A stretch of 48,582 bases of DNA from Robbsia andropogonis (GTDB taxonomy: Bacteria; Pseudomonadota; Gammaproteobacteria; Burkholderiales; Burkholderiaceae): the NCBI RefSeq assembly GCF_000970345.1, contig NZ_LAQU01000031.1, positions 1 to 48,582 of the forward strand, in the 5' to 3' direction. Position 1 is the first letter of the stretch. The number at the start of each line of letters is the position of its first letter. Made by a program: the position numbers and the translations under genes. This document shows positions 332-32,084 of the stretch, one piece after another. Under the pieces are notes generated by a model, which did not search any database, was not told where the DNA came from, and saw nothing but the letters and a program-made list of their open reading frames with translations.

Positions 332-507
332 CTTTCACGCAACACAGGATCATCCAAAGCGGGCGACGCCCCGCATCCTGCGACCATGTCGTATTACTTC
401 AAGGATTTTATCAAGGCGGCGGACTACGTCTGCGAGGATGGCAAAACTGTCCCGACGTTTCACGAGATCCGGTCGCTATCATCGCGCATCTATACCGACA
501 TTCATGA
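1..507 (+). CDS. IS3-family transposase OrfB, C-terminal part (5' end outside window)
   Basis: This is the DDE-type integrase core of an IS3-family transposase. The visible part holds the signature around RPGKPVENAYIESFNGKFRDE, with the catalytic glutamate in the IESFNG segment, followed by the usual YNxERPHSSxGYxTPEQF tail. The 5' half, with the two catalytic aspartates, lies outside the window. No stop codon occurs before the IS end near 331, so the frame reads into the flanking integrase remnant and stops at 505-507. About the last 55 residues are therefore out-of-frame read-through, not transposase. Family assignment is firm; activity cannot be judged from a fragment. Confidence 0.8.
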   Translation, partial: GPEFAGKVLDAWAYEAGVTLSFIRPGKPVENAYIESFNGKFRDECLNEHWFTSMRHAKAMIEAWRVEYNVERPHSSHGYPTPEQFATAHSQKAFLTTDSTAVSDKCRGQVTFTQHRIIQSGRRPASCDHVVLLQGFYQGGGLRLRGWQNCPDVSRDPVAIIAHLYRHS

Positions 508-515
508 GAAGGATT
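332..515 (+). pseudogene. Phage-type tyrosine integrase remnant, segment 1 (interrupted by IS66 element)
   Basis: In the frame that reads ATG TCG TAT TAC at about 387, the sequence encodes ...YYFKDFIKAADYV... followed by PTFHEIRSLSSRIY, the box II motif (H-x-x-R) of lambda-type tyrosine recombinases. The N-terminal part is missing because the IS3 end abuts it at 331. The frame is broken at 515 by the IS66 insertion and continues at 4143 after the duplicated GAAGGATT. Joining the two pieces restores HEKDFTQALLGHK in frame. It is a dead gene in its present form. The enzyme would have cut and rejoined att sites for a genomic island. Confidence 0.85.
508..515. repeat. Target-site duplication of the IS66 element, left copy
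   Basis: GAAGGATT at 508-515 is repeated exactly at 4135-4142, directly outside the two terminal inverted repeats. Eight-base duplications are characteristic of IS66-family transposition. Confidence 0.93.
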
Positions 516-608
516 GTAAGCGATCAATAAATAACGCCCCTCGGTTATCGAAGAGGTAAGATCCTTCTGATATCCTTTTCTCCAAAGCCAGTGACCGGGA
601 GTAGTGGT

Positions 609-1616
609 ATGCGTTGGATATTGACCATTTTGCTCGCAATCGTTTCTACGTGTTCGGTGCTAGCTGCCCCAGCCGCCTTTAACGCTGGCGTAACCCGTCT
701 TTCGGTGGCCGACGGAGCTGCTTCTCTCGACACGGTTGTCTTTTACCCTACGCATGAGCATGAGGCTCCATGGCAAGCCGGTCCGTTCACTGTGGAGGCG
801 ACACGCGATGCGCCTGTCGAGCATGGCCACTTTCCTGTTGTATTGATTTCACACGGAAGAGGTGGCAGCCCTTTCAGTCACCGTGAATTAGCTAGCTCTC
901 TAGCTCGCGCCGGATTTATCGTTGTCTTGCCGACGCACGTTGGGGATGCTTCCGGCCATCCCAGGGCTCTTTCCCAAGCGCAGATTCTGATTGATCGCCC
1001 ACGGCAGGCAGAGGCCGCACTCAACGCTGTCCTCATCGACCCCCGATTTTCGGCGAGTGCCGATGTCGGCCGAATTGGCATGATTGGCTACTCGGCGGGT
1101 GGCTATACTGCGCTGATTTTAGCGGGAGCAAAACCGGACTTCGCGTACGCCAGTGCATATTGCGCGAATCACGATGATCCGGGATCGTGCCCACATCCAG
1201 CAGCTCGCAATAGTGCAAACGGCACACACGGTATTCCTGCGGTATCGGCTGAATTGGTAGCCTGGCAACCATCAAGTGATCGCCGTCTGAAGGCCTTGGT
1301 GCTGATGGATCCACTGGCCATGATGTTTGAACCGTCGGGCTTATCGGCTGTACGCATACCGTCTATGCTGTATCGACCGCAAGACGACAGCTATCTTGGT
1401 TCCGCAAGGAATTCCCTCGCCGTCGCGTCGAGCTTGCCTGTACCGCCTACAATCCACGTGGTACCAGGCAACCACTTCGTTTTCATTGATCCTTGTCCGG
1501 CTGCAGTCGCGGCCAGTGTGCCGCTAATCTGTCAGGACGCTCCCGGGATCGATCGTCCGAATATCCATCGCCAGATAGAACATGAGGTCGTGGATTTCCT
1601 GCATGCAAATCTATAA
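609..1616 (+). CDS. Secreted alpha/beta hydrolase (dienelactone hydrolase / PAF-acetylhydrolase-like), IS66 passenger
   Basis: This is a predicted exported serine esterase or lipase-like hydrolase of about 335 residues. A signal peptide (MRWILTILLAIVSTCSVLAAP) precedes the mature domain. The oxyanion-hole region ISHGRGGSPFSH lies near residue 85, the nucleophile elbow GYSAGGY near residue 160, and a C-terminal GNHFVFID supplies the likely catalytic histidine. The ATG at 609 is preferred over the in-frame GTG at 591 because it begins the signal peptide and has GGGAG upstream at 598-602. The gene lies inside the IS66 terminal repeats, converges on tnpC with only 12 bp between the stops, and is not a transposition gene, so it is a passenger. 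The substrate cannot be told from sequence. Confidence 0.85.
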   Translation: MRWILTILLAIVSTCSVLAAPAAFNAGVTRLSVADGAASLDTVVFYPTHEHEAPWQAGPFTVEATRDAPVEHGHFPVVLISHGRGGSPFSHRELASSLARAGFIVVLPTHVGDASGHPRALSQAQILIDRPRQAEAALNAVLIDPRFSASADVGRIGMIGYSAGGYTALILAGAKPDFAYASAYCANHDDPGSCPHPAARNSANGTHGIPAVSAELVAWQPSSDRRLKALVLMDPLAMMFEPSGLSAVRIPSMLYRPQDDSYLGSARNSLAVASSLPVPPTIHVVPGNHFVFIDPCPAAVAASVPLICQDAPGIDRPNIHRQIEHEVVDFLHANL

Positions 1617-1628
1617 CGCAGGCAAAGC

Positions 1629-3164
1629 TTACATGTTCCAGGGAAGCAGCGCGTCGTAGTCGTCGACGGTCGTGGACAACGGCAGCTTTTTGAACAGCCA
1701 GGTGAGGTAACGGTAGGGATCTATATCGTTAGCTTTGCAGGTCTCAACCAAGGTGTAGAGGTTCGCGCTGGCGTTTGCACCGTCGACCGTATCGCTGAAC
1801 AGCCAGGAACGCCTTCCCACACAGAACGGGCGAATCGCATTCTCGCAGGCATTGTTGCTTATCGGCCAGTCGCCATTTTCTACGTAGCGCATTAGCTTTG
1901 GCCACTGCGCGCGCAGGTACGTCAGTGCACGGCCCAACAGACTTTTCGGTGCAACACCAGGCAAGTGCTCAACCATCAGCGCGTGGATGATCTCCAGCAC
2001 GCGTGCACTGTATCGTCGTCTCAATCGCTGTCGTCTCGTCGTAGGCCATTTCTCGCTATGCGCCTCGGCGGCGAACAACTTGCCAATGAGCTTTATGAAG
2101 TGCGTAGCGAGCAAATCAGGTGTCCGCGCAGCCTTGGGCACGCTCTCTTCGGCTTTCACGAAGTAACGTCTGGCGTGCACCCAACACCCAAGGTGCACGA
2201 GTTGGTGGCGCCGGGCGATATCGTTGTAGGGCTCGTATCCATCGGTCATCAGTACCGCACCCTCGCGGATTCCGGTGAACAGTTGATCGGCCAGCTTCGT
2301 GCCGCGCCCGGGGGTGTAGGTAAAGCAGCGGATCGGTACGACCGAATCTGTCATCTGCGCCCAGAGATAGCTCGTCGTTTGTGGTCGACGTCCTTTTTCT
2401 TTCAACACCTGCAGCGTCGTCTCGTCGCAATAAATCAGCTCGGCATCAAGCAGTGCGTCGCGCAGCAGGTTGATCACGGGTTGCGTGGCCAGTCCGACGC
2501 GCACCATGCTCGCCGCGATCGTATTCGACGACAGGTCGCCACCGAAGCGCCGTAGCAGACCCGCTTGGCGGTAGAGGGGCATGCCGAACTGATACTTGCC
2601 GGTGGCGATCCACGCAAGCGCCGATTCGCTCAGTAGCCCGCGAGGGATGATGCGTGCCGGCGCCGGTGTTACCTTGATGCCCAGATCACAGCACGTGCAC
2701 GCATATTTGACCCGCTGGTGCTGAATCACCCGAAGCTGCTCAGGAATCACGTCAAGCTGCTCGCTGATCTCCACACCGAACTCGACGAGCGCATGTCCAT
2801 CGTTTGCACAGAAACGCTGCGCTTCGGGCAGTTCGTGCCGTACAACGTCGCGCGGCAGGCTCGGATCAAGTGGCTTACGATGACCGCGCTTTTTGCGCGT
2901 GTGGCCAGAGACTGTCGATTCAGGCGCATCTTCTAGAGCGGGCGTGCTGTTTGTAGCCAGTACTTCGGCTTCGTTGAACAAACCCGGTTGATCTGAATCA
3001 CGTGCCTCGCTCTTCGCGGCAAATAACTCCCGGCGGTAGGCCCGCAGCCGCTCCTCTGCAAGATCGCGTTCGGCCGTCACCAGCCGCAGCGCACCGCGCA
3101 GCGCCTCCCGCTCGGCGAGCAGCGCTTTGAGTTCCTCGGCGTTGATCGTGATGTTGGTCGGCAT
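1629..3164 (-). CDS. tnpC: IS66-family transposase TnpC
   Basis: This is the 511-residue DDE transposase of an IS66 element. An N-terminal coiled-coil stretch rich in Leu, Glu and Arg (about residues 8-50) precedes a Cys-rich zinc-binding patch (KYACTCCDLG, about residue 155). The catalytic core follows, with YCDETTLQVL giving the first Asp, MTDGYEPYN the second, and NNACENAIRPFCVGRRSW the Glu. A short C-terminal YRYLTWLFKKLP/LPWNM tail is typical of the family. Length and motifs are intact, so it appears functional. It is the last gene of the tnpABC operon on the minus strand. Confidence 0.95.
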   Translation of the reverse strand: MPTNITINAEELKALLAEREALRGALRLVTAERDLAEERLRAYRRELFAAKSEARDSDQPGLFNEAEVLATNSTPALEDAPESTVSGHTRKKRGHRKPLDPSLPRDVVRHELPEAQRFCANDGHALVEFGVEISEQLDVIPEQLRVIQHQRVKYACTCCDLGIKVTPAPARIIPRGLLSESALAWIATGKYQFGMPLYRQAGLLRRFGGDLSSNTIAASMVRVGLATQPVINLLRDALLDAELIYCDETTLQVLKEKGRRPQTTSYLWAQMTDSVVPIRCFTYTPGRGTKLADQLFTGIREGAVLMTDGYEPYNDIARRHQLVHLGCWVHARRYFVKAEESVPKAARTPDLLATHFIKLIGKLFAAEAHSEKWPTTRRQRLRRRYSARVLEIIHALMVEHLPGVAPKSLLGRALTYLRAQWPKLMRYVENGDWPISNNACENAIRPFCVGRRSWLFSDTVDGANASANLYTLVETCKANDIDPYRYLTWLFKKLPLSTTVDDYDALLPWNM

Positions 3165-3195
3165 GCTAGGTTAGACCAGCATGTCGCGCGCACGT

Positions 3196-3549
3196 TCAGC
3201 TCACGCGCAGATATTCCTGCAACGGATGCCGGCGCACTGTCGTGATGTCATCGCCATCAAGCAGCGCATGCAACACCCCGGGCGTCATCATCACAACCTC
3301 GGCCTTTTTGTCGGGCCAGATGAAACGGCTTGCCTCAAGGCGTTTGGTCATAAGCCAGAACCCGCTACCATCCCAGCAAAGGATCTTGACCCTGTCGCGG
3401 CGGCGGTTCCCGAAGATGTAAAGCGAGCAGTCCATCGGGTTCAGGTGCATCGCCTGTTCGACGATAATCGACAGACTGTTCATGCCGTAGCGGAAATCGA
3501 CTGGATCTCGATGCAAATACACTTTTAGTCTGTCGTCGAACCGGAACAC
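3196..3549 (-). CDS. tnpB: IS66-family accessory protein TnpB
   Basis: This 117-residue protein is the IS66 Orf2/TnpB protein, recognised by VYLHRDPVDFRYGMNSLSIIV near the start and the central SLYIFGNRRRDRVKILCWDGSGFWL. It is required with TnpA for IS66 transposition in studied elements, although its biochemical role is unclear. It starts at a GTG (3549) that overlaps the end of tnpA by 25 bp, implying translational coupling, and is followed by tnpC after about 30 bp. Confidence 0.93.
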   Translation of the reverse strand: MFRFDDRLKVYLHRDPVDFRYGMNSLSIIVEQAMHLNPMDCSLYIFGNRRRDRVKILCWDGSGFWLMTKRLEASRFIWPDKKAEVVMMTPGVLHALLDGDDITTVRRHPLQEYLRVS

Positions 3550-4052
3550 GGCAAGCTCCCCAGCATTTGCACGATCGTTGCAAGCGCTTCTATGCTCGCT
3601 TTGCCCACCTCAAGCTGTACGCCGTTTGCCAGTCGAACGTGTAAGCCGATTGGAACCGGGGGCATTGCTCTGCTGGCCATCGATTGCGCACGCAACGATT
3701 CCAACGACGAGATGACGCGGGCGAAGGCCGGGGAGGATGCAGTTTGCCGCTGTTGCTGCAACGGTTCGGGAACCACATCATTGGGATCGCGCGTTTGAGC
3801 TTTTGGTTCGACGGCCTCGCGTGGCGTCTGCGCATCGATGGGCCACGCACTGCGTTCACGCTCCATCAGGTATTTGTTAATCCACTTGCGCAGCAAGTTC
3901 GCATTCACGGCATGTTCTTGTGCAATGCGTGCCACCGATACACCGGGTCGAAGGGCCGCTTTGATCAGTTCGAGCTTCGAACTTTCGTCGTAGCGCCTGC
4001 GACCATCGCGGCGGCGGTGCAGCACGCGCAACTCTGAGTCATTGTGAGTCAT
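3525..4052 (-). CDS. tnpA: IS66-family DNA-binding protein TnpA
   Basis: This is the small helix-turn-helix protein encoded first in the IS66 operon, about 175 residues. The HTH segment is YDESSKLELIKAALRPGVSV followed by ARIAQEHAVNANLLRKWINKY (about residues 20-62), as in IS3 OrfA/IS66 TnpA proteins; the C-terminal half is a variable linker. The ATG at 4052 (MTHNDSELR) is preferred over an upstream GTG at 4091 because the intervening sequence is a perfect hairpin. That hairpin sits directly upstream and may block initiation on mRNAs that read in from outside. Confidence 0.88.
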   Translation of the reverse strand: MTHNDSELRVLHRRRDGRRRYDESSKLELIKAALRPGVSVARIAQEHAVNANLLRKWINKYLMERERSAWPIDAQTPREAVEPKAQTRDPNDVVPEPLQQQRQTASSPAFARVISSLESLRAQSMASRAMPPVPIGLHVRLANGVQLEVGKASIEALATIVQMLGSLPCSGSTTD

Positions 4053-4054
4053 GG

Positions 4055-4083
4055 AAGGTGTCCACCTAGTAGGTGGACACCTT
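4055..4083. promoter_or_regulatory. Perfect hairpin directly upstream of tnpA
   Basis: AAGGTGTCCACCT at 4055-4067 is followed after AGT by its exact reverse complement at 4071-4083, then by a T run on the plus strand (4082-4086). The stem begins two bases upstream of the tnpA ATG on the minus strand and includes any ribosome site. It could sequester initiation on read-through transcripts, or terminate plus-strand transcription inside the element. Both readings are inference. Confidence 0.7.
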
Positions 4084-4134
4084 TTTCTCACACCCCAGCA
4101 TTCCTCGATAGGGTGTCGTTCACTGATCGCTTAC

Positions 4135-4142
4135 GAAGGATT
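4135..4142. repeat. Target-site duplication of the IS66 element, right copy
   Basis: GAAGGATT is identical to 508-515 and directly abuts the right terminal repeat of the IS66 element. Confidence 0.93.
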
Positions 4143-4249
4143 TCACCCAGGCACTGCTTGGGCATAAGACATCAGACATGGCCGATATATACCGCGACTC
4201 GCGAGGCGCAGAGTGGGCCGAAGTGAAGATCAAAGCATCGTCGTTTTGA
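4143..4249 (+). pseudogene. Phage-type tyrosine integrase remnant, segment 2 (C-terminus)
   Basis: In frame with segment 1 across the removed IS66 element, this encodes FTQALLGHKTSDMADIYRDS and then ends KASSF with TGA at 4247-4249. It contains the box II LLGHK histidine and the nucleophilic tyrosine (ADIYRDSRG). The stop is 31 bp from the direct repeat at 4281-4366, the usual arrangement of an island integrase next to its att site. Confidence 0.85.
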
Positions 4250-4280
4250 ACGAATTTCGAACGAGGCTCTTCGCTACCTC

Positions 4281-4366
4281 ATCAGCAACCAATTTATTCC
4301 TTTAAAATCAATCCTGCTTCACGTAGCGCGGCTGTTCTTGATGAGACGGCGAGTTTCTTGTAGATA
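4281..4366. repeat. Attachment-site direct repeat, copy 1 (att between two tandem islands)
   Basis: This 86-bp sequence matches 5801-5886 with one mismatch (T at 4312, C at 5832). Copy 2 is the 3' end of the response regulator gene, coding the C-terminus IYKKLAVSSRTAALREAGLILKE and stop on the minus strand. Copy 1 holds only that gene end, so it is a duplicated att core left by site-specific integration. The 285 bases from here to 4651 contain nothing else recognisable. Confidence 0.85.
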
Positions 4367-4651
4367 ATCTTAATTGAAAATACGAATTTTCTATTGCAAT
4401 CATTGAGTTAATGTAATTTTCCGGTGTGCGAGAACCCCGTTAAAGTAACAAACTCACCCTTGAGTAAACAAAGGGTTACAAGCGGGTTTTGAACGAACCT
4501 GACGCGAGATCTGTAGGATAAAACGCAGACCTGGGGGCAAATGTGCAATCCTGTCGGTCAGTCGACGAATTCGAGTGGTACGAGGACACTCGGGAATTGA
4601 GCGATGCCCCGGCATGACGTGCCTGCGCTGATCGAGACGCAGAAGTAAGCT

Positions 4652-5007: not shown

Positions 5008-5544
5008 TCAATACGGAATGATAGAAAGCGGCACGCCAGGAGAGCGTACACCGTTATCCCAATTGTGACCGTGTGGCGTCCCGGCGCCGTGGTCTGCATG
5101 AAAGTCAATATCGTACGCAGCGTTACCCGCTGAGTCATATCGGCGCATCTGGCCACTCGGTAATTCAAGCCATCCGTCGGGCGGCCCGCCGGTTCTCGGC
5201 AAACTCTGACTTGCTGCTAATTGAATGCCGTTGCTCGGATCTAGCGCAAACGAATCTTCGACGCTGATGGCGTTTTGTGATGTCGATAGCATGTAAGGGC
5301 GATGAAGACATTTACAGGCTATCGAATCGTACTCAAGCGCGACTTCTTTTCCCAAGTATTTGGAGCGGCGGGGGCCGCCTGATTTCACAATTGGTGCATA
5401 ACTGCGACACGAATTGCAATAAGCCAGGCTGCCTATTAAAGCTGCCTGTGCTTTGAATATCGTTTTTGTAGCTGCTACATTAGTCGATAGCACATAACCA
5501 CCAGATGACGGCTGGTCACTAGCGGTCACAACGCGTCGCTGCAC
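5008..5544 (-). CDS. PAAR-domain protein with C-terminal extension (likely type VI secretion effector)
   Basis: This 178-residue protein begins MQRRVVTASDQPSSGGYVLS, like the short N-terminus of PAAR_2-type spike-tip proteins, and has paired cysteines (CNSCRSYAP; CKCLHRP) of the type that bind zinc at the PAAR tip. After about residue 100 comes an unassigned extension rich in Gly, Asp and His, ending GHNWDNGVRSPGVPLSIIPY. The preceding DIDFHADHGAGTPH contains several potential metal ligands and resembles the C-terminal tails of some polymorphic toxins. It starts with GTG at 5544. No other type VI secretion gene is in the window, so it would be an orphan effector riding on a secretion system encoded elsewhere. 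Confidence 0.65.
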   Translation of the reverse strand: MQRRVVTASDQPSSGGYVLSTNVAATKTIFKAQAALIGSLAYCNSCRSYAPIVKSGGPRRSKYLGKEVALEYDSIACKCLHRPYMLSTSQNAISVEDSFALDPSNGIQLAASQSLPRTGGPPDGWLELPSGQMRRYDSAGNAAYDIDFHADHGAGTPHGHNWDNGVRSPGVPLSIIPY

Positions 5545-5644: not shown

Positions 5645-5780
5645 GAAGCCGACAAGCCTTTACGGCAAGGATTACACATAGGCATTACTCGATGATAAGA
5701 CATCCCGAATGGCCGATATGTACCGAAATTCGCGTGGCGCGTAGTGCGCTGAAGTGAAGGTCAAGACGTCGTAGTTTTGG
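5645..5780 (+). pseudogene. Decayed 3' end of a second tyrosine integrase
   Basis: The sequence aligns without gaps to the integrase tail at 4137-4249. It translates as LYGKDYT, stop, ALLDDKTSRMADMYRNSRGA, stop, and so on. Two in-frame stops, a lost stop (TGG for TGA at 5778-5780) and the loss of LLGH (now LLDD) show it is dead. It sits 20 bp from att copy 2, the same geometry as the first integrase at copy 1, so it belonged to the island lying between the two repeats. Confidence 0.8.
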
Positions 5781-5800
5781 ATAGCCGAATTACTTGCCCA

Positions 5801-5886
5801 ATCAGCAACCAATTTATTCCTTTAAAATCAACCCTGCTTCACGTAGCGCGGCTGTTCTTGATGAGACGGCGAGTTTCTTGTAGATA
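5801..5886. repeat. Attachment-site direct repeat, copy 2 (3' end of the response regulator gene)
   Basis: This 86-bp repeat partner of 4281-4366 lies mostly inside the response regulator coding sequence (stop at 5814-5816). Integration at a gene 3' end with restoration of the end is standard for island integrases, though a LuxR-type gene is an uncommon target compared with tRNA genes. Confidence 0.85.
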
Positions 5887-6716
5887 TTTTTTATATGGCA
5901 CTCTACCGTCAGTTTTGACAGCGCCAATCGTTCAGCAATTTCGCGGTTTGACAGCCCTTCCCCTACGGCCCCGAGAATCTGCCGCTCTCGCTTGCTTAAT
6001 ACCGACGCGCGCTCGGTAGAGGCAACAACCGCTGCCGCTACGACGGCATAGTTAACAGAAGGCGCCACAGGCTCCTCGGATGACGCTATCGTCAAGACTT
6101 CCGCTTGCACGGCATCCGGCCCTGCAAGCGTCTGCGCCACCAGCGCTGCTGCCCCGTCAGCACTATGCATCTCGGGCCGTCGACCGCCCGCATTGACTTC
6201 GTTTAACGGCGCACTTGATATTGGCAAGGCGACCGCGCCAGCTTGCCGCTCCGATGTCTGACCAAAAAGATGCAAGATATATCGCGCGACAAAAGGATCG
6301 ATTGGTGCCCCCCCACGCAATGCACTTCGAATACTGACAAGAATCTCAACATCGTCGCGCTCTTTCAATAGATAGCCCGTGGCGCCAGCCTGCAGAGCCC
6401 CGACGATGATCGTCTCCGTACTCCAAGACGATATGACCAGGATTGGAAGCGAAGGATCGCCAGCATGCATCTCGGCGATCAGATCGATACCACAACCGTC
6501 CGGCAGACCAACATCCACCAAGGCCATGGCCACCGGCTCTTCTTGCAATAACGCTCTTGCCTCGCCGATGGTACTCGCGAACAGCAACGCGTCGTCGCGA
6601 TAGCCCAGTTGTCGGAGAATGTGCTTCTGACGTTCCCGCATGACTGCCTCATCTTCCACCACCAACAAGGGAGACGGCAGTACGGAATCAACTCGTGAAA
6701 CGAGCAAGTCGGACAT
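5814..6716 (-). CDS. LuxR-family (NarL-type) response regulator, orphan
   Basis: This is a 300-residue two-component regulator. The receiver domain begins PLLVVEDEAVMRER, has the phospho-acceptor Asp in MALVDVGLPDGCG and the conserved Lys in YLLKERDD. A linker of about 80 residues rich in Ala and Val follows. The C-terminal LuxR HTH is SKRERQILGAVGEGLSNREI through LTVECHIKNIYKKL. The ATG at 6716 (MSDLLVSRV) is preferred over upstream in-frame starts because the extra 38 residues match no domain. No kinase is adjacent. Its last 20-odd codons form the att core used by the neighbouring islands, which restore the end of the gene, so it remains intact. Confidence 0.88.
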   Translation of the reverse strand: MSDLLVSRVDSVLPSPLLVVEDEAVMRERQKHILRQLGYRDDALLFASTIGEARALLQEEPVAMALVDVGLPDGCGIDLIAEMHAGDPSLPILVISSWSTETIIVGALQAGATGYLLKERDDVEILVSIRSALRGGAPIDPFVARYILHLFGQTSERQAGAVALPISSAPLNEVNAGGRRPEMHSADGAAALVAQTLAGPDAVQAEVLTIASSEEPVAPSVNYAVVAAAVVASTERASVLSKRERQILGAVGEGLSNREIAERLALSKLTVECHIKNIYKKLAVSSRTAALREAGLILKE

Positions 6717-15653: not shown

Positions 15654-16631
15654 CTAGAACCAAAAACGTACACCTGCATCGATGCCGACCTCGTCGAGCG
15701 TGGTACCCCTGCCACGTAACATCGCGGCCGTCGCCCCAAAGGGGCGCTCCCAGGTCAAACCAATATACGGTGCGAACTTCCGCGTCACCTCATAACGTAA
15801 CCGAAGTGACGCGGTCATATCGGAAATGCCAGCCCCAACACTACGGGCCGCGTCACGTCTACCATAGGCGTTCACCTCAAGTTCCGGTGTCAATACGAGC
15901 CGCTGCGTGAAGCGCCAGTCATAATCAGCGCGCGCCCACAACGCCGTGCGACTCGACGGATCGACATATGCCATCGCTGACAAATTGACGTACCACGGCA
16001 TTACCCCCTGGACGCCCACCATACCCCAATAGCGAGTCGGGCCGGATCCAAGATCGGTGCGCATTCCGAGCAATGTGTTCCAATACCGGTCAACGGCGTG
16101 ACGCCACGCCCCTTCGATGCGCACATCGCTCCAGTTGCCACGGATACGCTGTCCCTCGCTGCGGAAGAAAAACCGGTCGCGGTCCCCACCGATCCAGCCA
16201 GACATGTCCCAACGCATACCTGAAACACCGCGAACGCTTTGATAGCCGAATTGATCAAAAAGAATCTGATGATAAATCGCATCGTCATGCATATCCATGC
16301 CCGACATTGCCATACTCAGATTCGGGGCAGTCATCCGCACCGGGTCGATCTTGTCGGGCAGAATCACATTCGCCGGTGCAATCGCTGCTGCGGGCTGAGA
16401 CGTCAAGGTATCACTTGACGACGTTGTCGGCGCGTCATGCCCGCCATGTGGATCGCTATTCATCTCCGGCATGTCGTGCATAGATCCCGACACGCCAGTA
16501 TCGGGTGCCGCAGTGACATGCGTGTAGACCGCTATTGCACCCACGCACACGAAAACCCGAGACAGGTTCATCGCCAATTGTTTTGTTGCTGGCCGTTTGC
16601 GCAACAGCGTTTGCGGGCGCGTTGCCATCAT
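15654..16631 (-). CDS. copB: Copper resistance protein B (outer membrane)
   Basis: This CopB-family protein is predicted to be an outer-membrane barrel that works with CopA in periplasmic copper handling. The 325-residue product has an N-terminal signal region, His/Met-rich segments (SMHDMPEMNSDPHGGHD; SMAMSGMDMHDD), then the conserved barrel domain from QILFDQFGYQ to a C-terminal phenylalanine (DAGVRFWF). The start MMATRPQ at 16631 overlaps the copA stop (ATGA context), so longer in-frame starts inside copA are not used. It is the third gene of the operon. Confidence 0.92.
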   Translation of the reverse strand: MMATRPQTLLRKRPATKQLAMNLSRVFVCVGAIAVYTHVTAAPDTGVSGSMHDMPEMNSDPHGGHDAPTTSSSDTLTSQPAAAIAPANVILPDKIDPVRMTAPNLSMAMSGMDMHDDAIYHQILFDQFGYQSVRGVSGMRWDMSGWIGGDRDRFFFRSEGQRIRGNWSDVRIEGAWRHAVDRYWNTLLGMRTDLGSGPTRYWGMVGVQGVMPWYVNLSAMAYVDPSSRTALWARADYDWRFTQRLVLTPELEVNAYGRRDAARSVGAGISDMTASLRLRYEVTRKFAPYIGLTWERPFGATAAMLRGRGTTLDEVGIDAGVRFWF

Positions 16632-18562
16632 GCAACCACCACCTTGCGAAACATCCCGGCCTCCATGTGATACAGCAGATGACAATGAAAGGCCCACTGT
16701 CCTGGTGCATCGGCAGTAACAAGCGCCGAAAGCTGTTTTGCCGGTTGGACGTTGATCGTATGCTTGCGCACTAGGAACGTTCCGTCTTCGCTCTCCACCT
16801 CGAAGAACATCCCGTGAAGATGAATTGGATGATTCATCATCGTGTCGTTGATCAACGTGATCCGGAGCCGCTCACCGTAATAAAATCGATACGGAGGAGC
16901 CTCTGAATATTTGAGCCCATCGAAACCCCATATGAAGCGCGACATATTTCCGGTGAGGTGAATGACCATCTCCCGGGACGGCGGACGCGGATCGAGCGGA
17001 CCACCAATGGTGTGAAGGTCCGCATAGGTCAAAACCCGCCACTCCGATGCCCCCTGGGTCTCTCCTGTTCTCAGACGAGGACCAGGATCATCAAGGCGCT
17101 TCGAAGGCATTGCAATTCGCATATCGACCTCCACGCCCGTTGACAACGGCGCATCGGTGTCGGACCTGGCGGACGTGATGTCAGGCGATGGCGCATGAAG
17201 TACCGCGGTCTTGGCCGAAGACAACGGGTGCATGTCCATGGTTCCCATGGCCATGCCTGGCATCGTCGTATCGTGACGCTTCCCGCCATGGCCCATGTCC
17301 ATGCCATGCATCGGCATCGCACCCATCATGTCTTCGTCGGCAAGCCAGGTCTTAGCCCGCATCATAGGCACGCTACCCACCATATCCATGCTTGGCGCCA
17401 AGGTTCCGCGAGCATAACCACTACGATCTATCGACTCGCTGAAAATCGTATAGGCCCGATCGTCCGGCATCGTGAACAAGACTTCGTAGGTCTCTGCGGC
17501 CGCAAATCGGAATTCATCCACGTCGACGGGATCGACTTGCTGCCCATCGGCTGCAATCACCGTCATCTTGATGCCAGGAATACGCACGTCGAATATCGAC
17601 GATGCGCTTGCGTTGATGAAACGCAAGCGTATGCGCTCGCCCGCCCTGGCAATTCCGGTCCAATTCGCCGCTGGCGACTTCCCATTAGTGAGATAGGTGT
17701 ATGTGGCACCGGACACATCGGCAAAGTCCGTAGGGTTCATGCGCATGGTATTCCACATGCGGCGTTTCAGAATCGCGGCGTGTAGGCCTTCGGTATGCAC
17801 GTCCCGGAAAAATCCAGGAACCGTCGGCATCTGACGATTGTAATAATCGCTATCGGCTTTCAGATTGGATAAGATCGTCGACGGTTTTTCATCAGTCCAG
17901 TCACTCAACATCACCACATAGTCTCGGTCCGGCCTGACCGTATCGCCATCCTGCGGAACGATGACGATCGGCCCATACAGCCCCAACTGCTCCTGGAAGC
18001 CGCTATGACTGTGATACCAGTATGTCCCCGCCTGGCGTACCTTGAATCGATACGTGAACGTTTCGCCCGGTGCAATGCCCGGAAAACTGATACCGGGTAC
18101 GCCATCCATCCCGAAGGGCAACACGATACCGTGCCAGTGGATCGACGTTACCTCGTCAAGCGCGTTGCGAACCCGTAACGTGACCGTATCGCCCTGCCGC
18201 CATTGCAGCAACGGTGCCGGCATGCTGCCATTCACGGTGAACGCACGCCGTGATTTGCCGGTGAGGTTCACGGCGCGCGTTCCAATTTCGAGATCGAACG
18301 TATTGCCAGTAAGCGGCTCGGCACGCGCTGGCTGCTCGGCTGCAACCGGCAGGTCAGCAGAGTTGCCGGATACGTTCTCGTCACGTACTGTCGCGTATGC
18401 TGAAACGACCCAACTTCCCGCGAACGTCGCCGCTGTTGCTGCGATGCCTTGAACAAAGCGGCGCCTGCTCAGAGGGGTGGCGTCGTCGCGCGAAGGTATC
18501 GCGTCATGACATGTGTTGACGCCAACTTCGGCGCCTATACCACCTCGTGGCGGTAAGTTCAT
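16628..18562 (-). CDS. copA: Copper resistance multicopper oxidase CopA
   Basis: This 644-residue periplasmic multicopper oxidase oxidises Cu(I) to the less toxic Cu(II). A Tat signal (SRRRFVQGIAATAATFAGSW) lies near residue 35. The copper ligand motifs are SIHWHGIVLPFG, YWYHSHSGFQEQ, HPIHLHGMFFEVE and HCHLLYHMEAGMF. A Met-rich insert (MMGAMPMHGMDMGHGG and onward) is typical of CopA and PcoA. The ATG at 18562 overlaps the ATPase stop (ATGA) and has GGGGAGCG upstream, so the longer start at 18586 is rejected. Confidence 0.95.
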   Translation of the reverse strand: MNLPPRGGIGAEVGVNTCHDAIPSRDDATPLSRRRFVQGIAATAATFAGSWVVSAYATVRDENVSGNSADLPVAAEQPARAEPLTGNTFDLEIGTRAVNLTGKSRRAFTVNGSMPAPLLQWRQGDTVTLRVRNALDEVTSIHWHGIVLPFGMDGVPGISFPGIAPGETFTYRFKVRQAGTYWYHSHSGFQEQLGLYGPIVIVPQDGDTVRPDRDYVVMLSDWTDEKPSTILSNLKADSDYYNRQMPTVPGFFRDVHTEGLHAAILKRRMWNTMRMNPTDFADVSGATYTYLTNGKSPAANWTGIARAGERIRLRFINASASSIFDVRIPGIKMTVIAADGQQVDPVDVDEFRFAAAETYEVLFTMPDDRAYTIFSESIDRSGYARGTLAPSMDMVGSVPMMRAKTWLADEDMMGAMPMHGMDMGHGGKRHDTTMPGMAMGTMDMHPLSSAKTAVLHAPSPDITSARSDTDAPLSTGVEVDMRIAMPSKRLDDPGPRLRTGETQGASEWRVLTYADLHTIGGPLDPRPPSREMVIHLTGNMSRFIWGFDGLKYSEAPPYRFYYGERLRITLINDTMMNHPIHLHGMFFEVESEDGTFLVRKHTINVQPAKQLSALVTADAPGQWAFHCHLLYHMEAGMFRKVVVA

Positions 18563-21162
18563 ACACTTCGCTCCCCATGCGACCATTGATGAGATATATC
18601 CGCATTAAACGATAGTGCAGAGCGGATAAAGCGTAAGCGTAGTCCATTGCTCAACACGAAGACCGAAGACAATGCCATCGCCGCGGCGGCAAGCATCGGC
18701 GACAATAAAAGTCCAAGGAGTGGATAGGCAAGTCCGGCGGCAAGTGGGATCAACACGACATTGTAGCCAAACGCCCACACCAAATTCTGGTGAATATTGC
18801 GCATCGTTGCATGGCTGATAGTCACAGCGTCCACCACCCCATGCAATGCACTGCGAGCCAGCACGACATTGGCGCTCTGTATCGCCACGTCACTGCCGGA
18901 ACCAATCGCAATGCCGACATCGGCATGCGCCAAGGCCGGCGCATCATTCATGCCGTCCCCCACGAAAGCAAGCAAACCGTATTGCGCGCGCAATGCATCG
19001 AGGGCCGCTACTTTGCCATCGGGCGTTACATCGGCACGCACGTCGTCGATACCCAATATCGATGCCACGGCTGCAGCGGTCGCGGCCGCATCTCCGGTGA
19101 TCATCGCCACACGTAATTGACGTGCACGTAACGCTGCGATGACGGTAGCCGTTTCTGGACGGATCGGATCGGCCACGGCAAGCGCGCCCACGACCCGCCC
19201 CGATAATGCTACGTACAGGACCGTCTTCATCGCCGCGTGCCACGGCGCGACAACCCTTTGAAGCACGTCGTCATCAGGCATCGCGGGTGCTGCTCTGTCG
19301 GCAACGCACTGATGCGCCATCCAAGTCGCATTGCCTATTGCTATAAGGTGACCGTCTATGGTTCCAGCGACCCCTTGCCCTGTGCTGGAAACAAAGTTCG
19401 ATACGGTATGCGGTGACAAGGCCGAAGCGTTTTCGGCCAAACCAATATGCCGCGTGGCGGCAGCGACGACCGCATGGGCGAGTGGATGCGCCGATAAACG
19501 TTCCAGTGCCGCCATACCCGACCATAGCGCCACTTCATCGACCGAGACAAACCAGTGCGTATCCGTGACCGCGGGCTTGCCTACTGTCAGCGTGCCGGTC
19601 TTATCGAACGCGACAACCTTGCATGCCTGCAACGTCTGCAACGCATCGCCTTGGCGAAACAACACCCCAAGGCGCGCTGCCCGGCCGGCGGCAACCATGA
19701 TCGACGTCGGTGTCGCCAAGCCCATTGCACAAGGGCAGGCGACGATCAGTACCGCCACCGCGGTGGAAAGGGCAAATGCCACGTCGCGACCCAATGCCAT
19801 CCACGCGGCAAACGTCAACACGGCAGCAACCAATACAGCCGGCACGAACCACGCTGTAACAAGATCGACTTTCTGCTGGATCGGCAGCTTCGCACCTTGA
19901 GCGCGTTGCACCAGGGCGATGATCCGCGACAGCGTCGCATCGGCACCGACGCGTGTAACACGGGCCCGCAAGATACCATCGCCGTTCACCGTTCCGCCGG
20001 TGAGGTCGGTTGCCACACCGTGTCGTTTCTCAACCGGCATCGACTCGCCGGTCAGCATACTTTCGTCGACATACGATGCACCGTCGATCAATACCGCATC
20101 CGCAGGCACCCGTTCGCCAGGGCGGATCAAAATGGCATCGCCCACTTTCAACATGGCCAGAGGCACATCGCTTATGCGACGATCATCACCATTGTCCAGA
20201 CCGTCGAGACGATGCGCGGTATCGGGACGCAGCGCCAGCAGGGCGCGAATCGCATCACCGGTCCGCCCCTTTGCACGCGCTTCCAGATACCGACCCAATA
20301 AAATCAACACGACGATCACCGCCGCTGCTTCAAAATACAGATGCCGTGCCTGTTCCGGTACCCAGTCAGGGCGTAGCGCGGCAATCATCGAAAAGCTCCA
20401 TGCGGCACCCGCGCCCAATGCCACCAGCGTATTCATATCGGGCGCCGCGCGCCGCGCGGCCTGGGTACCTTTAATGAAGAATTGCCGGCCCGGTCCAAAA
20501 AGCACCAATGTGGTTAAGACCGCTTCAATCGTCGTAATCGTGCCGGTGCCAACGCTGCTCACCAACAGGGGAATAGCCGACAGCCCAAGATGGCCCGCCA
20601 TTTCGAAAAGGAACACCGGTAACGTCAATGCGATCGCCAGAATCAAATTCCGGCGCTGCTGCATCACATCGCGGGCTTTACGTGCCGCCTTGGCATCGGA
20701 GGTGCCAAGCTCCGATCCTTCACGGGAAACAACCTCAGCGCCACCATTCAGCGTATGTGTTTCCGAACCGGGGAGGTCGGTAACAGGTAGCGTTGCTGGA
20801 GAAGCGGCAATGCGGCGTACTGCTTGCGTTGACCGCGAGTCCATCTGAGGCGCCGCCTCCGCAGGCTGCCTCCATTCATCCGCCATTTGAAGTTGGGTGG
20901 GATAGCCTGCGGCGGTACCCGCTTCGGCGATACGGGTGGGCTGTACTTGCGACGGATCGTACCGAACGAATGCAGTTTCACTCGCCAAATTGACCGCTAC
21001 ATCCGCCACACCGGGAATGGCTTGAAGTGCCTTTTCCAGGCGCCGCACGCACGATGCGCAGGACATGTCGGCGACGTCAAATGTGCCCTCTTCGAATGAC
21101 GCGGATAAGCTGGGAGCACTTGCAGAAGGCGCATTCGGCGATATGTTTTCTGAGTTAGCCAT
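18559..21162 (-). CDS. Copper-translocating P1B-type ATPase
   Basis: This inner-membrane pump exports Cu(I) from the cytoplasm using ATP. The 867-residue protein has one heavy-metal-associated domain (DMSCASCVRRL), about eight membrane helices, the actuator motif LTGESMPVEK, the membrane metal motif VACPCAMGLATP, the phosphorylation site FDKTGTLTVGK and the hinge VGDGMNDAPALA. The ATG at 21162 (MANSEN) has GGAG seven bases upstream and is preferred over the GTG at 21174. It is first in the operon, before copA and copB, behind a CueR-type operator. Confidence 0.95.
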   Translation of the reverse strand: MANSENISPNAPSASAPSLSASFEEGTFDVADMSCASCVRRLEKALQAIPGVADVAVNLASETAFVRYDPSQVQPTRIAEAGTAAGYPTQLQMADEWRQPAEAAPQMDSRSTQAVRRIAASPATLPVTDLPGSETHTLNGGAEVVSREGSELGTSDAKAARKARDVMQQRRNLILAIALTLPVFLFEMAGHLGLSAIPLLVSSVGTGTITTIEAVLTTLVLFGPGRQFFIKGTQAARRAAPDMNTLVALGAGAAWSFSMIAALRPDWVPEQARHLYFEAAAVIVVLILLGRYLEARAKGRTGDAIRALLALRPDTAHRLDGLDNGDDRRISDVPLAMLKVGDAILIRPGERVPADAVLIDGASYVDESMLTGESMPVEKRHGVATDLTGGTVNGDGILRARVTRVGADATLSRIIALVQRAQGAKLPIQQKVDLVTAWFVPAVLVAAVLTFAAWMALGRDVAFALSTAVAVLIVACPCAMGLATPTSIMVAAGRAARLGVLFRQGDALQTLQACKVVAFDKTGTLTVGKPAVTDTHWFVSVDEVALWSGMAALERLSAHPLAHAVVAAATRHIGLAENASALSPHTVSNFVSSTGQGVAGTIDGHLIAIGNATWMAHQCVADRAAPAMPDDDVLQRVVAPWHAAMKTVLYVALSGRVVGALAVADPIRPETATVIAALRARQLRVAMITGDAAATAAAVASILGIDDVRADVTPDGKVAALDALRAQYGLLAFVGDGMNDAPALAHADVGIAIGSGSDVAIQSANVVLARSALHGVVDAVTISHATMRNIHQNLVWAFGYNVVLIPLAAGLAYPLLGLLLSPMLAAAAMALSSVFVLSNGLRLRFIRSALSFNADISHQWSHGERSV

Positions 21163-21201
21163 ATTGTGCTCCACGTTACGTTTCCACGACGATCACCTTA
21201 A

Positions 21202-27940: not shown

Positions 27941-28591
27941 ATGGCAGCGAAAATCATTACAGTGTTCAATCAAAAGGGTGGGGCGGGCAAAACCCTTGTC
28001 AGTTGCCATCTTGCAGAAACCCTCGCTTTGCGTGGGAATAAATCCCTGCTGGTGGATCTCGATCCGCAAGGGACCGCCACCATATGGGCATCCATGTCTA
28101 GCGAGGATCGTCCCGTCAAAACTACGGCGATCAATCTGAGCATGATGGCTTCCGCAGCGCACAGAGAAATTCGAAAATTTGTCGCTGATTACGATTACAT
28201 CGTCATAGACTGCCCGCCTGCAATCCAGTCGGTTGCACCGTCTGTGGCCCTGCTTGTTTCCGACCTTGCCTTGATTCCGGTCGGTGGTTCTGGAGGGAAT
28301 TTGTGGGCTATCGAAGAAGCAAAGAAACTTGCAGCAACGGCAATGGCGAACAATGAATCTTTGAAGGTTCGCACACTTCCTAACATGTACCAGAACATCT
28401 CGATCGTCAAACAGGTCTTCCAGCACTTATCCGAAGACCCCAGTGTTCCCATGCTGAAAAGCCGGCTTGGACTGAGGGCGGCATTCAAAGAGGCAGAGAC
28501 TACTGGGCAATCGGTACATACCATTTCTGGCGGGAAAGACGCAGTGCGCGAAGTCAATTCGCTTGTCGACGAAGTTCTGGCACTTATCTAA
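27941..28591 (+). CDS. parA: Partition ATPase ParA
   Basis: This 216-residue protein is a short ParA/MinD-type ATPase lacking an N-terminal HTH. It has the deviant Walker A motif FNQKGGAGKTLVSCHLA, Walker A' LLVDLDPQGTATIWA and Walker B YIVIDCPPA. GGGAGG sits upstream of the ATG. With parB and the palindrome cluster it forms the segregation system of this replicon. It lacks the DNA-binding N-terminus that lets larger ParA proteins repress their promoter, so repression may be by ParB at the palindrome 31 bp upstream. Confidence 0.93.
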   Translation: MAAKIITVFNQKGGAGKTLVSCHLAETLALRGNKSLLVDLDPQGTATIWASMSSEDRPVKTTAINLSMMASAAHREIRKFVADYDYIVIDCPPAIQSVAPSVALLVSDLALIPVGGSGGNLWAIEEAKKLAATAMANNESLKVRTLPNMYQNISIVKQVFQHLSEDPSVPMLKSRLGLRAAFKEAETTGQSVHTISGGKDAVREVNSLVDEVLALI

Positions 28592-28661
28592 GGAAAATTG
28601 GAATGGCTGGAAAAAGAACTTTTCTGGATCGCTTGTAAAAGGGATCAACCGTGATGGTGCC

Positions 28662-29720
28662 ATGCGCGCGTCGCTTGACGACCGCTTCTCGCGTGCCGAG
28701 GAATTGATCAGCGAAAAACCGAATGGCTTGCTATCGAGCAGTCCATCGAATCCCAATGATGCTGTGAATAGCGAAGGGCGTATCCATAACGACGCCGCAC
28801 CACTGACGCTCATATCTTCCGCGGCAACAGCGTCACCTACGCCGGCACATCCCACTGCACTAGCGGACAGCCTCGACAACCTGGCAGCAAAGGGTGTCCG
28901 ACAGCGGTTTGCCGCTTTGCCGATTGAAGCTATTCAAAGTAACCCTTTGAACAGTCGAAGCTATTACAATCCGGAGGCAATTGAAGCGAGGGCAGTCTCG
29001 ATTCAGAAAGAGGGGCAGTTGGTTCCTGTCCTTGTGACACCGGATGCGCATCGCCCTGGCAAATATCTGCTAATTGATGGCCACTATCGACGCCTGGCAA
29101 TGCAGTCGATCGGGCGCAAACAGATGGACTGCTGCATTCTTGAAGATTTACAGCCAGTGGATTTCTACCGCTTGTCCAAAGCGTTGAACCACGAACGTGA
29201 AGGTGAAACCGTTCTAGACGTTGCATTAGGCTTGCAGAAATTGAAAGACAACCAGATCGCAATGACGGACGAAGATCTGGTATCAATTGCCGGCGAGAAC
29301 GCCACGAAAATCAGTAAACTGCTGTCGTTGCTAGAGTTGCCGTCTCCCGTCAAGGAAACTATCCAAGAGCATCCTCACCATTTTGGAATCAACACGGCCT
29401 ACGAACTGACCCTATATCAAAAGGCAACAGATGGGCGAATGACCGAGCAACTGGCTCGTCGTATTGTCGACGAATCATTGACGTTTCGAAAAGTGGAGTC
29501 GATCCGAAAAAATGCGGAGCTTGGCAAGCGTCCAAAGAAACAACTGTCGCGACAATACAAGATTGTCGCGAGCGACGGGAGAGAGCTCGGTACGTTGAAA
29601 GAATGGGATTCGGGACGCGTCGTCCTCGACGTCAAGTTTAACGACCAGAAACAGCGGGACGCACTTCTGACCGATATCAAGTCGCAGTTTGGTCTCGACG
29701 GCGCCTCACTCATCGCCTGA
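28662..29720 (+). CDS. parB: Centromere-binding protein ParB (start uncertain)
   Basis: This protein carries a ParB/Sulfiredoxin-like domain (LPIEAIQSNPLNSRSYYNPE; VSIQKEGQLVPVLVT; LLIDGHYRRLAMQSIGRKQM), a central HTH region (DEDLVSIAGENATKISKLLS) and a C-terminal dimer-type domain. The box usually written GERRxRA is DGHYRRLA here. The first in-frame ATG is 28662, but it has a poor ribosome site. A well-placed ATG at 28603 (AGGA eight bases upstream) is in another frame and stops after 11 codons, and the open frame extends upstream of 28662 without a stop. A lost base, or a shift of frame, is possible. It follows parA by about 70 bp. Confidence 0.85.
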   Translation: MRASLDDRFSRAEELISEKPNGLLSSSPSNPNDAVNSEGRIHNDAAPLTLISSAATASPTPAHPTALADSLDNLAAKGVRQRFAALPIEAIQSNPLNSRSYYNPEAIEARAVSIQKEGQLVPVLVTPDAHRPGKYLLIDGHYRRLAMQSIGRKQMDCCILEDLQPVDFYRLSKALNHEREGETVLDVALGLQKLKDNQIAMTDEDLVSIAGENATKISKLLSLLELPSPVKETIQEHPHHFGINTAYELTLYQKATDGRMTEQLARRIVDESLTFRKVESIRKNAELGKRPKKQLSRQYKIVASDGRELGTLKEWDSGRVVLDVKFNDQKQRDALLTDIKSQFGLDGASLIA

Positions 29721-29790
29721 TTCCTCTGACCGAACTCAGTCGCAGCAGTTGGACATTATCCTAGGCCCAGTACCATAACCTGCTACCTTT

Positions 29791-31173
29791 TCACTCGTCG
29801 ATATCGTCCGGCGTGGGCGAGTCTGACCGCGACGCGGCGGCCGCCGCGCCACTCAGCAGAAACTGCAACAAGTCCCCGTCGCTTGGTTCACCCCACGTAA
29901 CGTGAGCGAGCCAGTTAAAAAAACTTTTTTCGGCAACCACAGACGGCTTGCGCGACTTCGAGATCTTTAACTGTTTCAAAGAAACGCTGTCGTTATAGTC
30001 TGCCAGCAATTGTGTCTGATCTTCTACGGCAAGTTCGTTGAAATACGATTTCGCAAGCGGCAGTCGATGGGCAATAAAGCGTTCTTTCAGTTCCTTAGGG
30101 GAAAGCCCAGCGGCACCGGCCATATTGCCAGTCGCGTCCGCGCCGCGAGATTTACCATTGACGTTCACCTCAGTGGCTTTTGGTGCTCTTCCTGCGGTAA
30201 CACTTCCCCATCCTTGAGACAGTGCACGACGGAAATAGGCGCCAACATTATCGACAGGCGGCGCGTTCCGCTTGCCCATTCGTTCTTTTAGATAAGCGAT
30301 CGCCTGCTGCACTCGGTCGACGCCATATTCGTTAACAAGCTTGCGTGCTTCCGATGGAAGAACGCCAAGTTTGGTCACTGCTTGGAGCACTGCCGGGTCC
30401 ACATCCTCTTCGGACTTCGCTTCGGGTTTTCTGGTGATCGTGAACTGCACTTCCGCTACCGATCGACCATTTTTGTATTCGATCAACTCCACGGTATGGT
30501 CAGTAACTTCGTTGACCTCCTTCATGGCCGGAATCAGGATTCGACTCTTGAAGATTTTATATTCGCGATAGGAGCTCTTGTTCGAATCCTGCCCCAGAAA
30601 AAGCTCGCGAAACGTCTTCACCGGAATCTTGCCTGTACGGCCAATTCCCTCATAGCGCACAACGTTTTCCCATAGCGTCAGCGAATGACCGCGTTTGAAT
30701 TGCCGGGTGATCCGCATGTCGATCATTGCGTACATCACTGGATTCAACAGCAATTCACGAATCTGGTCGGAGAAGTTGTAGCGTAGTCGCGATCCATCAA
30801 TTTCCGCTCCGGATAACAGGCCCGATGCTTTCCAGATGCTGCGACTGTCGGGCATCAAATGATCCCAATTGACGACCGTACCGACGAGCGAGTTAATCGT
30901 CGCCTTGACGTAATTGCGGTTGTTGCTGTTCAGCCCAACGTCGTCGATAAGATTGCGCAGTGAGTACTCAAACGTCAACCGCTGATCTTCCGCATTTTGT
31001 GCGATTGCATTTTTGATCAACGCGTTGAACATCTTTGCTTGTTGCAACGTGATGGCGCCCGACTTCGGTGCGATATGAACCGCCTGGACCGCTTTCTTGA
31101 ACGGTTCCGGTGGCTCCGCCGCCTGAAACAATGCGATCTGCGTTTCTTTGCTCGCTCGACTGCCGCTTGCCAT
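29791..31173 (-). CDS. Replication initiator, Rep_3 family
   Basis: This 460-residue protein is an iteron-binding initiator of the Rep_3/RepB class. The winged-helix core is visible in ITLQQAKMFNALIKNAIAQN, YVKATINSLVGTVVNWD, LTLWENVVRYEGIGRTGKIP and YREYKIFKSRILIPAMKEVN, and a long C-terminal extension follows (to residue 460), as in initiators of second chromosomes and megaplasmids of this family. The ATG at 31173 (MASGSRASKE) has GAGG nine bases upstream and is preferred over 31200. The first iteron lies about 107 bp upstream, so the protein probably represses its own promoter. Confidence 0.88.
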   Translation of the reverse strand: MASGSRASKETQIALFQAAEPPEPFKKAVQAVHIAPKSGAITLQQAKMFNALIKNAIAQNAEDQRLTFEYSLRNLIDDVGLNSNNRNYVKATINSLVGTVVNWDHLMPDSRSIWKASGLLSGAEIDGSRLRYNFSDQIRELLLNPVMYAMIDMRITRQFKRGHSLTLWENVVRYEGIGRTGKIPVKTFRELFLGQDSNKSSYREYKIFKSRILIPAMKEVNEVTDHTVELIEYKNGRSVAEVQFTITRKPEAKSEEDVDPAVLQAVTKLGVLPSEARKLVNEYGVDRVQQAIAYLKERMGKRNAPPVDNVGAYFRRALSQGWGSVTAGRAPKATEVNVNGKSRGADATGNMAGAAGLSPKELKERFIAHRLPLAKSYFNELAVEDQTQLLADYNDSVSLKQLKISKSRKPSVVAEKSFFNWLAHVTWGEPSDGDLLQFLLSGAAAAASRSDSPTPDDIDE

Positions 31174-32084
31174 GAACTCAACCTCGATATGCGCCGCCAC
31201 GCATCTTTTGGCGCGGCCAAGGTGACATTATCGCCGATATCGTGCACCAATTGGAATGAATCAGCGGCGCGATTCTCGAACCATAGCCGTTCACCTCAAA
31301 CGGGAAAACCAGCTGGCGAATTCTTGTAGGTAATTGATATTGTTCTACTATTTTAAAAATGAGATATCACGCGCTGCGAGGCATTCTAACAAGACACGAA
31401 CCATAGATATGTACCTCAAGCACACGCAAGTGGATTCACGTTATTGTTCGGCGGGCGCTCTTCCACTGCGGTTTCCGCCAAGCGCTTGTTTGATTGACCA
31501 TAAACCTTCACCTAAGTGCTACGGGTATCCCGTTCGACCGCCGTACCACTTGGCAAAACGAAAAGCAGAACGGGATAAGGAGCAAACAAGCGCACCGATC
31601 CAACTGCGACTTTGTGAACCATAGATATTCACCTTTCCATTGGAACGCTGCTCTCTGGAAGCACAGCGGCGTTATCCAAGTAACGCTGTCCTGCAAAGCA
31701 TCTAAGCGAATCTGTGGTTTTTTCCAGTGGAAGCGACCAAAGTAGTACCCGTAAAGTGATGCGATTTGACGAGTGTCGCTTAAGAATCCATTCGCACAGT
31801 CCCTCTAAGCCTGTCGCAAAACGTGATTTCTACTATTTTTTGAGAGGAAATGATCTTAGCCTCGCGGTCCTTTGGCTATAGCGGTAGTGTCGGCCGCTTT
31901 ACCATAACAATGCACCTTTTGTTCGTACCATAGACATGTACCTTTAGATGGCGAATGCCCATGAAATCGAAGATGTCACGTCTTAGCCCTTTAATTTGAA
32001 GGGGAGTAGTCGCCTGTGAGGGACCATAAACGTTCACCTTTACGTTATCCCATAGCTGTTCACCTGTGAGACCCCTTTCAAACC

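Follow-up and report, generated by a model that had tools for sequence, protein, structure and literature searches.

Results

An IS66-family element with a hydrolase gene between its ends

We analyzed a 48,582-nucleotide contig of Robbsia andropogonis (NZ_LAQU01000031.1, hereafter the window) and identified at positions 516–4134 a 3,619-bp IS66-family element in which tnpA, tnpB and tnpC are all open and a gene for an alpha/beta hydrolase lies between tnpC and the left end. IS66-family elements have terminal inverted repeats starting GTAA and an 8-bp target duplication. The element starts with GTAAGCGATCA at 516–526 and closes with the reverse complement at 4124–4134, forming exact 11-bp inverted ends that are 79% complementary over 24 nt, and an exact 8-bp duplication, GAAGGATT, sits immediately outside both ends at 508–515 and 4135–4142. 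No other pair of positions 2–6 kb apart in the window combines exact inverted ends of 11 bp with an exact flanking duplication of 8 bp, and 20 mononucleotide shuffles of the window yielded no such pair. The tnpABC genes, GTAA-type ends and exact 8-bp duplication identify an IS66-family element, and the non-transposition gene between the ends (hydrolase, 609–1616) identifies the passenger-carrying type, tIS66. The features of the locus are as follows.

332–515, plus strand: left part of the interrupted phage-type (tyrosine) integrase gene; 81.5% nucleotide identity to positions 1683–1500 of related locus L156
508–515: left target-site duplication GAAGGATT, from sequence; one copy in the uninterrupted relative
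516–539, plus strand: left terminal inverted repeat (IRL), from sequence
540–608, plus strand: leader between IRL and hydrolase, from sequence comparison
609–1616, plus strand: passenger gene, PAF-acetylhydrolase/cutinase-like alpha/beta hydrolase of 335 amino acids, from Pfam, predicted fold and likely triad
1629–3164, minus strand: tnpC, IS66 DDE transposase of 511 amino acids; PF03050 at E 1.6e-89, NF033517 above cut-off
3196–3549, minus strand: tnpB, 117 amino acids; PF05717 at E 2.7e-35, above the NCBIfam cut-off
3525–4049, minus strand: tnpA, 174 amino acids; PF01527 at E 2.3e-12, below its NCBIfam cut-offs
4055–4083: perfect inverted repeat of 14 bp in the gap between tnpA and IRR, from sequence; possibly an operator or terminator
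4111–4134, minus strand: right terminal inverted repeat (IRR), from sequence
4135–4142: right target-site duplication GAAGGATT, from sequence
4135–4249, plus strand: right part of that integrase gene, with its 3′ end; 84% amino acid identity to the L156 frame

TnpC, TnpB and the TnpA helix-turn-helix domain all pass their Pfam cut-offs, and TnpA scores just under one NCBIfam cut-off (69.8 bits, cut-off 74) and well under another (53.7 bits, cut-off 150). The hydrolase gene converges on tnpC, with 12 bp between the two stop codons.

The element inserted into an integrase gene

A second genome of the same genus (G002, locus L156) carries the integrase gene uninterrupted, with a single GAAGGATT at the matching place. 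In separate searches, the translated left flank (365–514, 82% identity) and right flank (4136–4246, 84% identity) matched adjacent segments of one 392-codon L156 frame, and at the nucleotide level the two flanks overlap on L156 by exactly 8 bp. Pfam assigns the L156 frame to the phage-type integrases with arm-binding and catalytic domains (PF00589/PF09003/PF22022); the two short pieces in the window have no Pfam match alone, so the integrase was identified through this relative. A search of 249 family genomes with the left piece at E ≤ 1e-8 returned three matches: the element's own genome, L156 and the more distant L157, where the integrase is likewise uninterrupted. Because the flanks are contiguous on uninterrupted L156 with an 8-bp overlap and one GAAGGATT, the whole 516–4134 stretch, hydrolase included, is one insertion into the integrase gene. 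The inverted ends with exact flanking duplication, and the hydrolase converging on tnpC from the left end, had been proposed in a preliminary description of this DNA; both were borne out, the former by the sequence and the empty site.

A 239-bp stretch starting inside the right duplication is repeated at 5667–5894 (79% identity), where the corresponding octamer is CAAGGATT. L156 also matches this second integrase copy and may be orthologous to either one; the contiguity argument is valid either way. This direct repeat of the integrase 3′ end (4136–4374 and 5667–5894) begins at the target site of the element, and its two copies flank a stretch of ~1.3 kb with a PAAR-domain gene (5008–5544).

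The passenger is a predicted exported hydrolase

The predicted fold of the hydrolase is nearest to PAF-acetylhydrolase/Lp-PLA2, and an alpha/beta-hydrolase fold with a likely Ser-Asp-His catalytic triad can be modeled at S162-D234-H289; D259/260, the first choice for the catalytic acid, was dropped in favor of D234. By eye, the N-terminus resembles a signal peptide. The protein is probably exported, with a putative serine esterase or phospholipase activity of the PAF-acetylhydrolase/cutinase type. Identity is about 20% to plasma PAF-acetylhydrolase/Lp-PLA2 (3d59, 5ye7), a feruloyl esterase (5yal) and PETase/cutinase enzymes. The earlier proposal of an extracellular esterase as cargo holds for the cargo, which is carried in the inserted unit, and remains a prediction for the enzyme, drawn from the modeled fold, the signal-peptide-like N-terminus and conserved cysteines.

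The hydrolase ATG lies 93 bp from the left end in the window and 95–97 bp from it in nine related genomes. Over its first 62 nt (516–577), the left end shares 82–84% identity with four other hydrolase-bearing copies, and over the next 31 nt identity is 52–58%.

Linked hydrolase copies occur at eight other sites

We next surveyed hydrolase homologs in 398 family genomes, mostly scoring five candidates per genome, so that counts are lower bounds. At least 104 of the 398 genomes encode some homolog at E ≤ 1e-30, and besides the element's own genome, at least 16 places in 15 genomes match at E ≤ 2.3e-120. Searches of two genera (144 genomes from the genus of G111 and 65 from that of G257) added four genomes, G448, G468, G480 and G483, and an order-wide sample of 399 genomes that overlaps the family sample returned only the element's own genome at E ≤ 1e-90. 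Named carriers of a close hydrolase are Paraburkholderia nodosa, Burkholderia seminalis, Burkholderia sp. OK233 and a P. caribensis plasmid (close to G383). Among plasmid records, 134 contain the hydrolase by protein comparison, and surroundings were examined for five; in viral contigs, two pattern matches were found and no relative. Distant hydrolases (L049–L053, L060–L063 and L071–L097) adjoin none of the window's IS66 genes at the thresholds used and were left out of the element's history; several of their contigs are short, L081, L090, L091, L092 and L094 among them.

For the hydrolase tree we used 15 other hydrolases with at least 74% identity. In nine of them (G051, G111, G180, G200 contig 46, G257, G383, G448, G468 and G483) the hydrolase ATG is preceded by the left end, and the stop codon is followed directly by the 3′ end of tnpC. 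These nine genomes represent eight sites with different left flanks, since G180 and G257 share one site. All nine have a truncated tnpC, with at most about half of the gene kept and alignable remnants of 37–767 bp. Under the criteria applied, a search for a right end next to the nine copies found none, with ~9–10 kb downstream covered for seven, 6 kb for G180 and 0.9 kb before the contig end for G200 contig 46. Across the left-end-bearing copies, the ratio of nonsynonymous to synonymous substitution rates (dN/dS) of the hydrolase is 0.10–0.28 (45 pairs).

These data bear on the idea that the hydrolase belongs to the host background, next to a tnpABC insertion of greater age, and that the repeat at 516 is a chance match. 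Some close homologs do stand without recognizable IS66 sequence (L172, L170, L171, L174 and L070); against this, the G002 empty site is devoid of the entire 516–4134 stretch, the left end precedes the hydrolase and tnpC follows it at eight other sites, and none of the shuffles produced such an end pair. We consider this explanation highly improbable, and the preliminary description, which had named a host-background hydrolase next to an older insertion as the case that would overturn it, withstands that challenge because the hydrolase lies inside the inserted unit and is linked to the left end and the tnpC 3′ end at the eight sites.

Two further arrangements were noted among the close copies. 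G257 (L041/L173) and G180 (L042/L066) carry a pair of left ends in facing orientation, ~1.6 kb from each other; in the interval between them, one has a full hydrolase and the other an inverted partial hydrolase, and the 8-bp flanks mismatch. This could be a transposase-free derivative. G200 has two close hydrolase copies, one on contig 46 (L047) with an IS66 left end and one on contig 38 (L045/L170) without.

The slot between tnpC and the left end is short in most related copies

To place the passenger among relatives, we compared 50 IS66 loci, comprising the window, nine plasmid loci (from 194 records) and 40 genome loci, mostly the best of a longer list; plasmid and genome loci are not all independent because they partly overlap (for example L099 and L119, whose records have the same length, 386,625). 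Both ends and an exact 8-bp duplication could be defined in 34 of the 50 loci, 33 of them distinct. Apart from the window, the distance from tnpC to the left end is 46–96 bp in 31 loci and 478 and 488 bp in two. The ends of related copies start GTAAGCG in many cases and GTATGCG or GTACGCG in others. The 16 loci without an exact-duplication resolution were not counted; 12 of these have a left-end-like sequence 46–91 bp from tnpC, and no such sequence was found in the other four (L121, L137, L149 and L152).

Passenger-free Burkholderiaceae elements (L115, L101 and L144) share the tnpABC order, GTAAGCG ends and 8-bp duplications of the window element, whereas the distance between tnpC and the left end is 46–96 bp in passenger-free copies and 1,116 bp in the window. 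Two relatives resemble the window element in having an extra open reading frame in the same slot and exact 8-bp duplications: L154 (G337:C3) encodes a GNAT acetyltransferase (Pfam E 1.5e-17). The other relative, L100 (B. multivorans plasmid NZ_CP090736.1), has a frame of 103 amino acids with no Pfam match. Both frames are unrelated to the hydrolase and, unlike it, lie on the same strand as tnpC.

Some comparisons suggest different tnpC and hydrolase histories

Comparison of individual segments raises the possibility that the left end and hydrolase form a portable cassette swapped by recombination between IS66 backbones, so that the tnpABC set in the window was not the carrier of the other copies. 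The window and hydrolase-bearing L165 share 82% identity in the hydrolase and left 62 nt and 70–75% in the 3′ part of tnpC, with dS values of 0.65 and 1.63 for the hydrolase and the tnpC 3′ part, respectively. When the 3′ part of tnpC is placed in a tree as DNA, a single clade of five hydrolase-bearing copies is rejected (approximately unbiased (AU) test, p 0.00056), and the window TnpC protein is closer to passenger-free L115 (identity 0.867) than to L165 (0.743). In contrast, the protein tree, which includes three hydrolase-bearing copies, is compatible with a single clade (AU p 0.257), the tnpC copies besides that of the window are truncated remnants of which three fill under half of the alignment columns, four-fold sites of the window tnpC differ similarly from L115 (0.496) and L165 (0.500), and the poorly conserved 31 nt make part of the leader more diverged than tnpC. 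We regard such a swap as doubtful. The hydrolase and left end suggest one lineage; the tnpC parts give a less consistent picture, and their trees disagree. A broader proposal, which we hold equally tentatively, is that the interval separating tnpC from the left end serves as a cargo slot, that left end and cargo form a module exchangeable between IS66 backbones, and that the transposase is then discarded and the cargo kept; if true, elements of this IS66 clade would be one-gene delivery vehicles for Burkholderiaceae hosts.

Discussion

We interpret the feature as an autonomous tIS66, a passenger-carrying member of the IS66 family, with a probability of about 92%. In this model, TnpA, TnpB and TnpC would use the two GTAAGCGATCA ends to mobilize the whole interval that these enclose, hydrolase included, so that transposition would be catalyzed by the element's own proteins. 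The hydrolase gene may have been captured together with a short leader of its own, and after insertion the transposase part tends to go while the left end and hydrolase stay. Loss of the transposase part with retention of the left end and hydrolase suggests that the hydrolase is useful to the host.

Several observations weigh against this interpretation. A second complete unit with its own 8-bp duplication was found neither in plasmids (194 records, in none of which a single place covered 80% of the element) nor in the family, the two genera, the order or 34 loci in genome contigs. One of the 15 close hydrolases (G143) lies beside a degenerate left end and lacks an adjoining tnpC, and five (G337, G200 contig 38, G480, G342 and strain UYCP14C) have neither a recognizable left end nor tnpC; in G480 and G342 the leader retains a match to nt 19–62 and 40–62 of the window's left region, respectively, and G337 groups within a left-end-bearing set (99/96 support), which fits the expectation if its left end was lost. 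Otherwise, resolution in the hydrolase tree is poor, and the left-end-bearing copies do not form a single clade there (6 changes, a value as low as that in 132 of 500 shuffles), no sigma-70-like promoter was scored for the hydrolase in its leader, and the very close pair G257/G180 (dN 0.012, dS 0.011) has few changes and no signal of selection. The element is also present only once in its own draft genome. This single copy and the truncation of the nine others would suit a dead element that inserted once and no longer moves, an outcome that we judge unlikely, though less so than a backbone swap, given three open tnp genes and an exact duplication. The earlier idea that the hydrolase moves as a unit with the element is supported in part: the hydrolase lies inside a proven insertion and the same order recurs, in truncated copies, in nine genomes at eight sites, and no second complete copy with its own duplication was found in these searches.

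Passenger-carrying IS66 elements are already known, as tIS66 elements such as ISPa75-fosZ are in print, and the present element is a further, well-documented example. A 2026 paper (PMC12888890) describes ISPa75, a tIS66 (IS66 with a passenger) carrying fosZ downstream of the transposase, and reports ISPa75-fosZ from 159 strains with ten target duplications. Among the 25 IS66 entries that ISfinder lists for Pseudomonas, it counts seven with passengers. With these figures and two of 33 relatives here, the initial view that passenger genes are rare in IS66 relatives was too strong. As described in that paper, ISPa75 resembles the window element in its tnpA, tnpB and DDE transposase genes, its one passenger downstream of the transposase and its ends starting GTAA, and differs in backbone, host and passenger, a fosfomycin-modifying enzyme. 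A promoter is reported there between end and passenger (PMC12888890), and in contrast to the 159 strains with ISPa75-fosZ, the window element is represented by a single complete copy and truncated relatives. A full-text literature search that covered few subscription papers returned none pairing "IS66 family" with "dienelactone hydrolase" and no esterase cargo, and PADLOC gave no match. Beyond the repeats, the empty site shows an IS-sized element carrying a non-resistance enzyme as cargo. Together with it, the truncated copies at eight other sites with an open, low-dN/dS hydrolase and the two relatives with other open reading frames in the same slot suggest that in environmental bacteria, too, IS66 elements bring in single genes, beyond resistance genes in clinical bacteria.

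Rest of the contig

Left of the interrupted integrase, at the contig start (1–330), lies the C-terminal part of an integrase-core (rve_3) transposase that reads by eye as IS3-type. Further ORFs recognized by eye resemble copper-resistance genes at 15654–21174 (CopB-like, multicopper oxidase and P-type ATPase) and ParA, ParB and Rep genes at 27941–31200, from which the contig may be part of a plasmid or second replicon.

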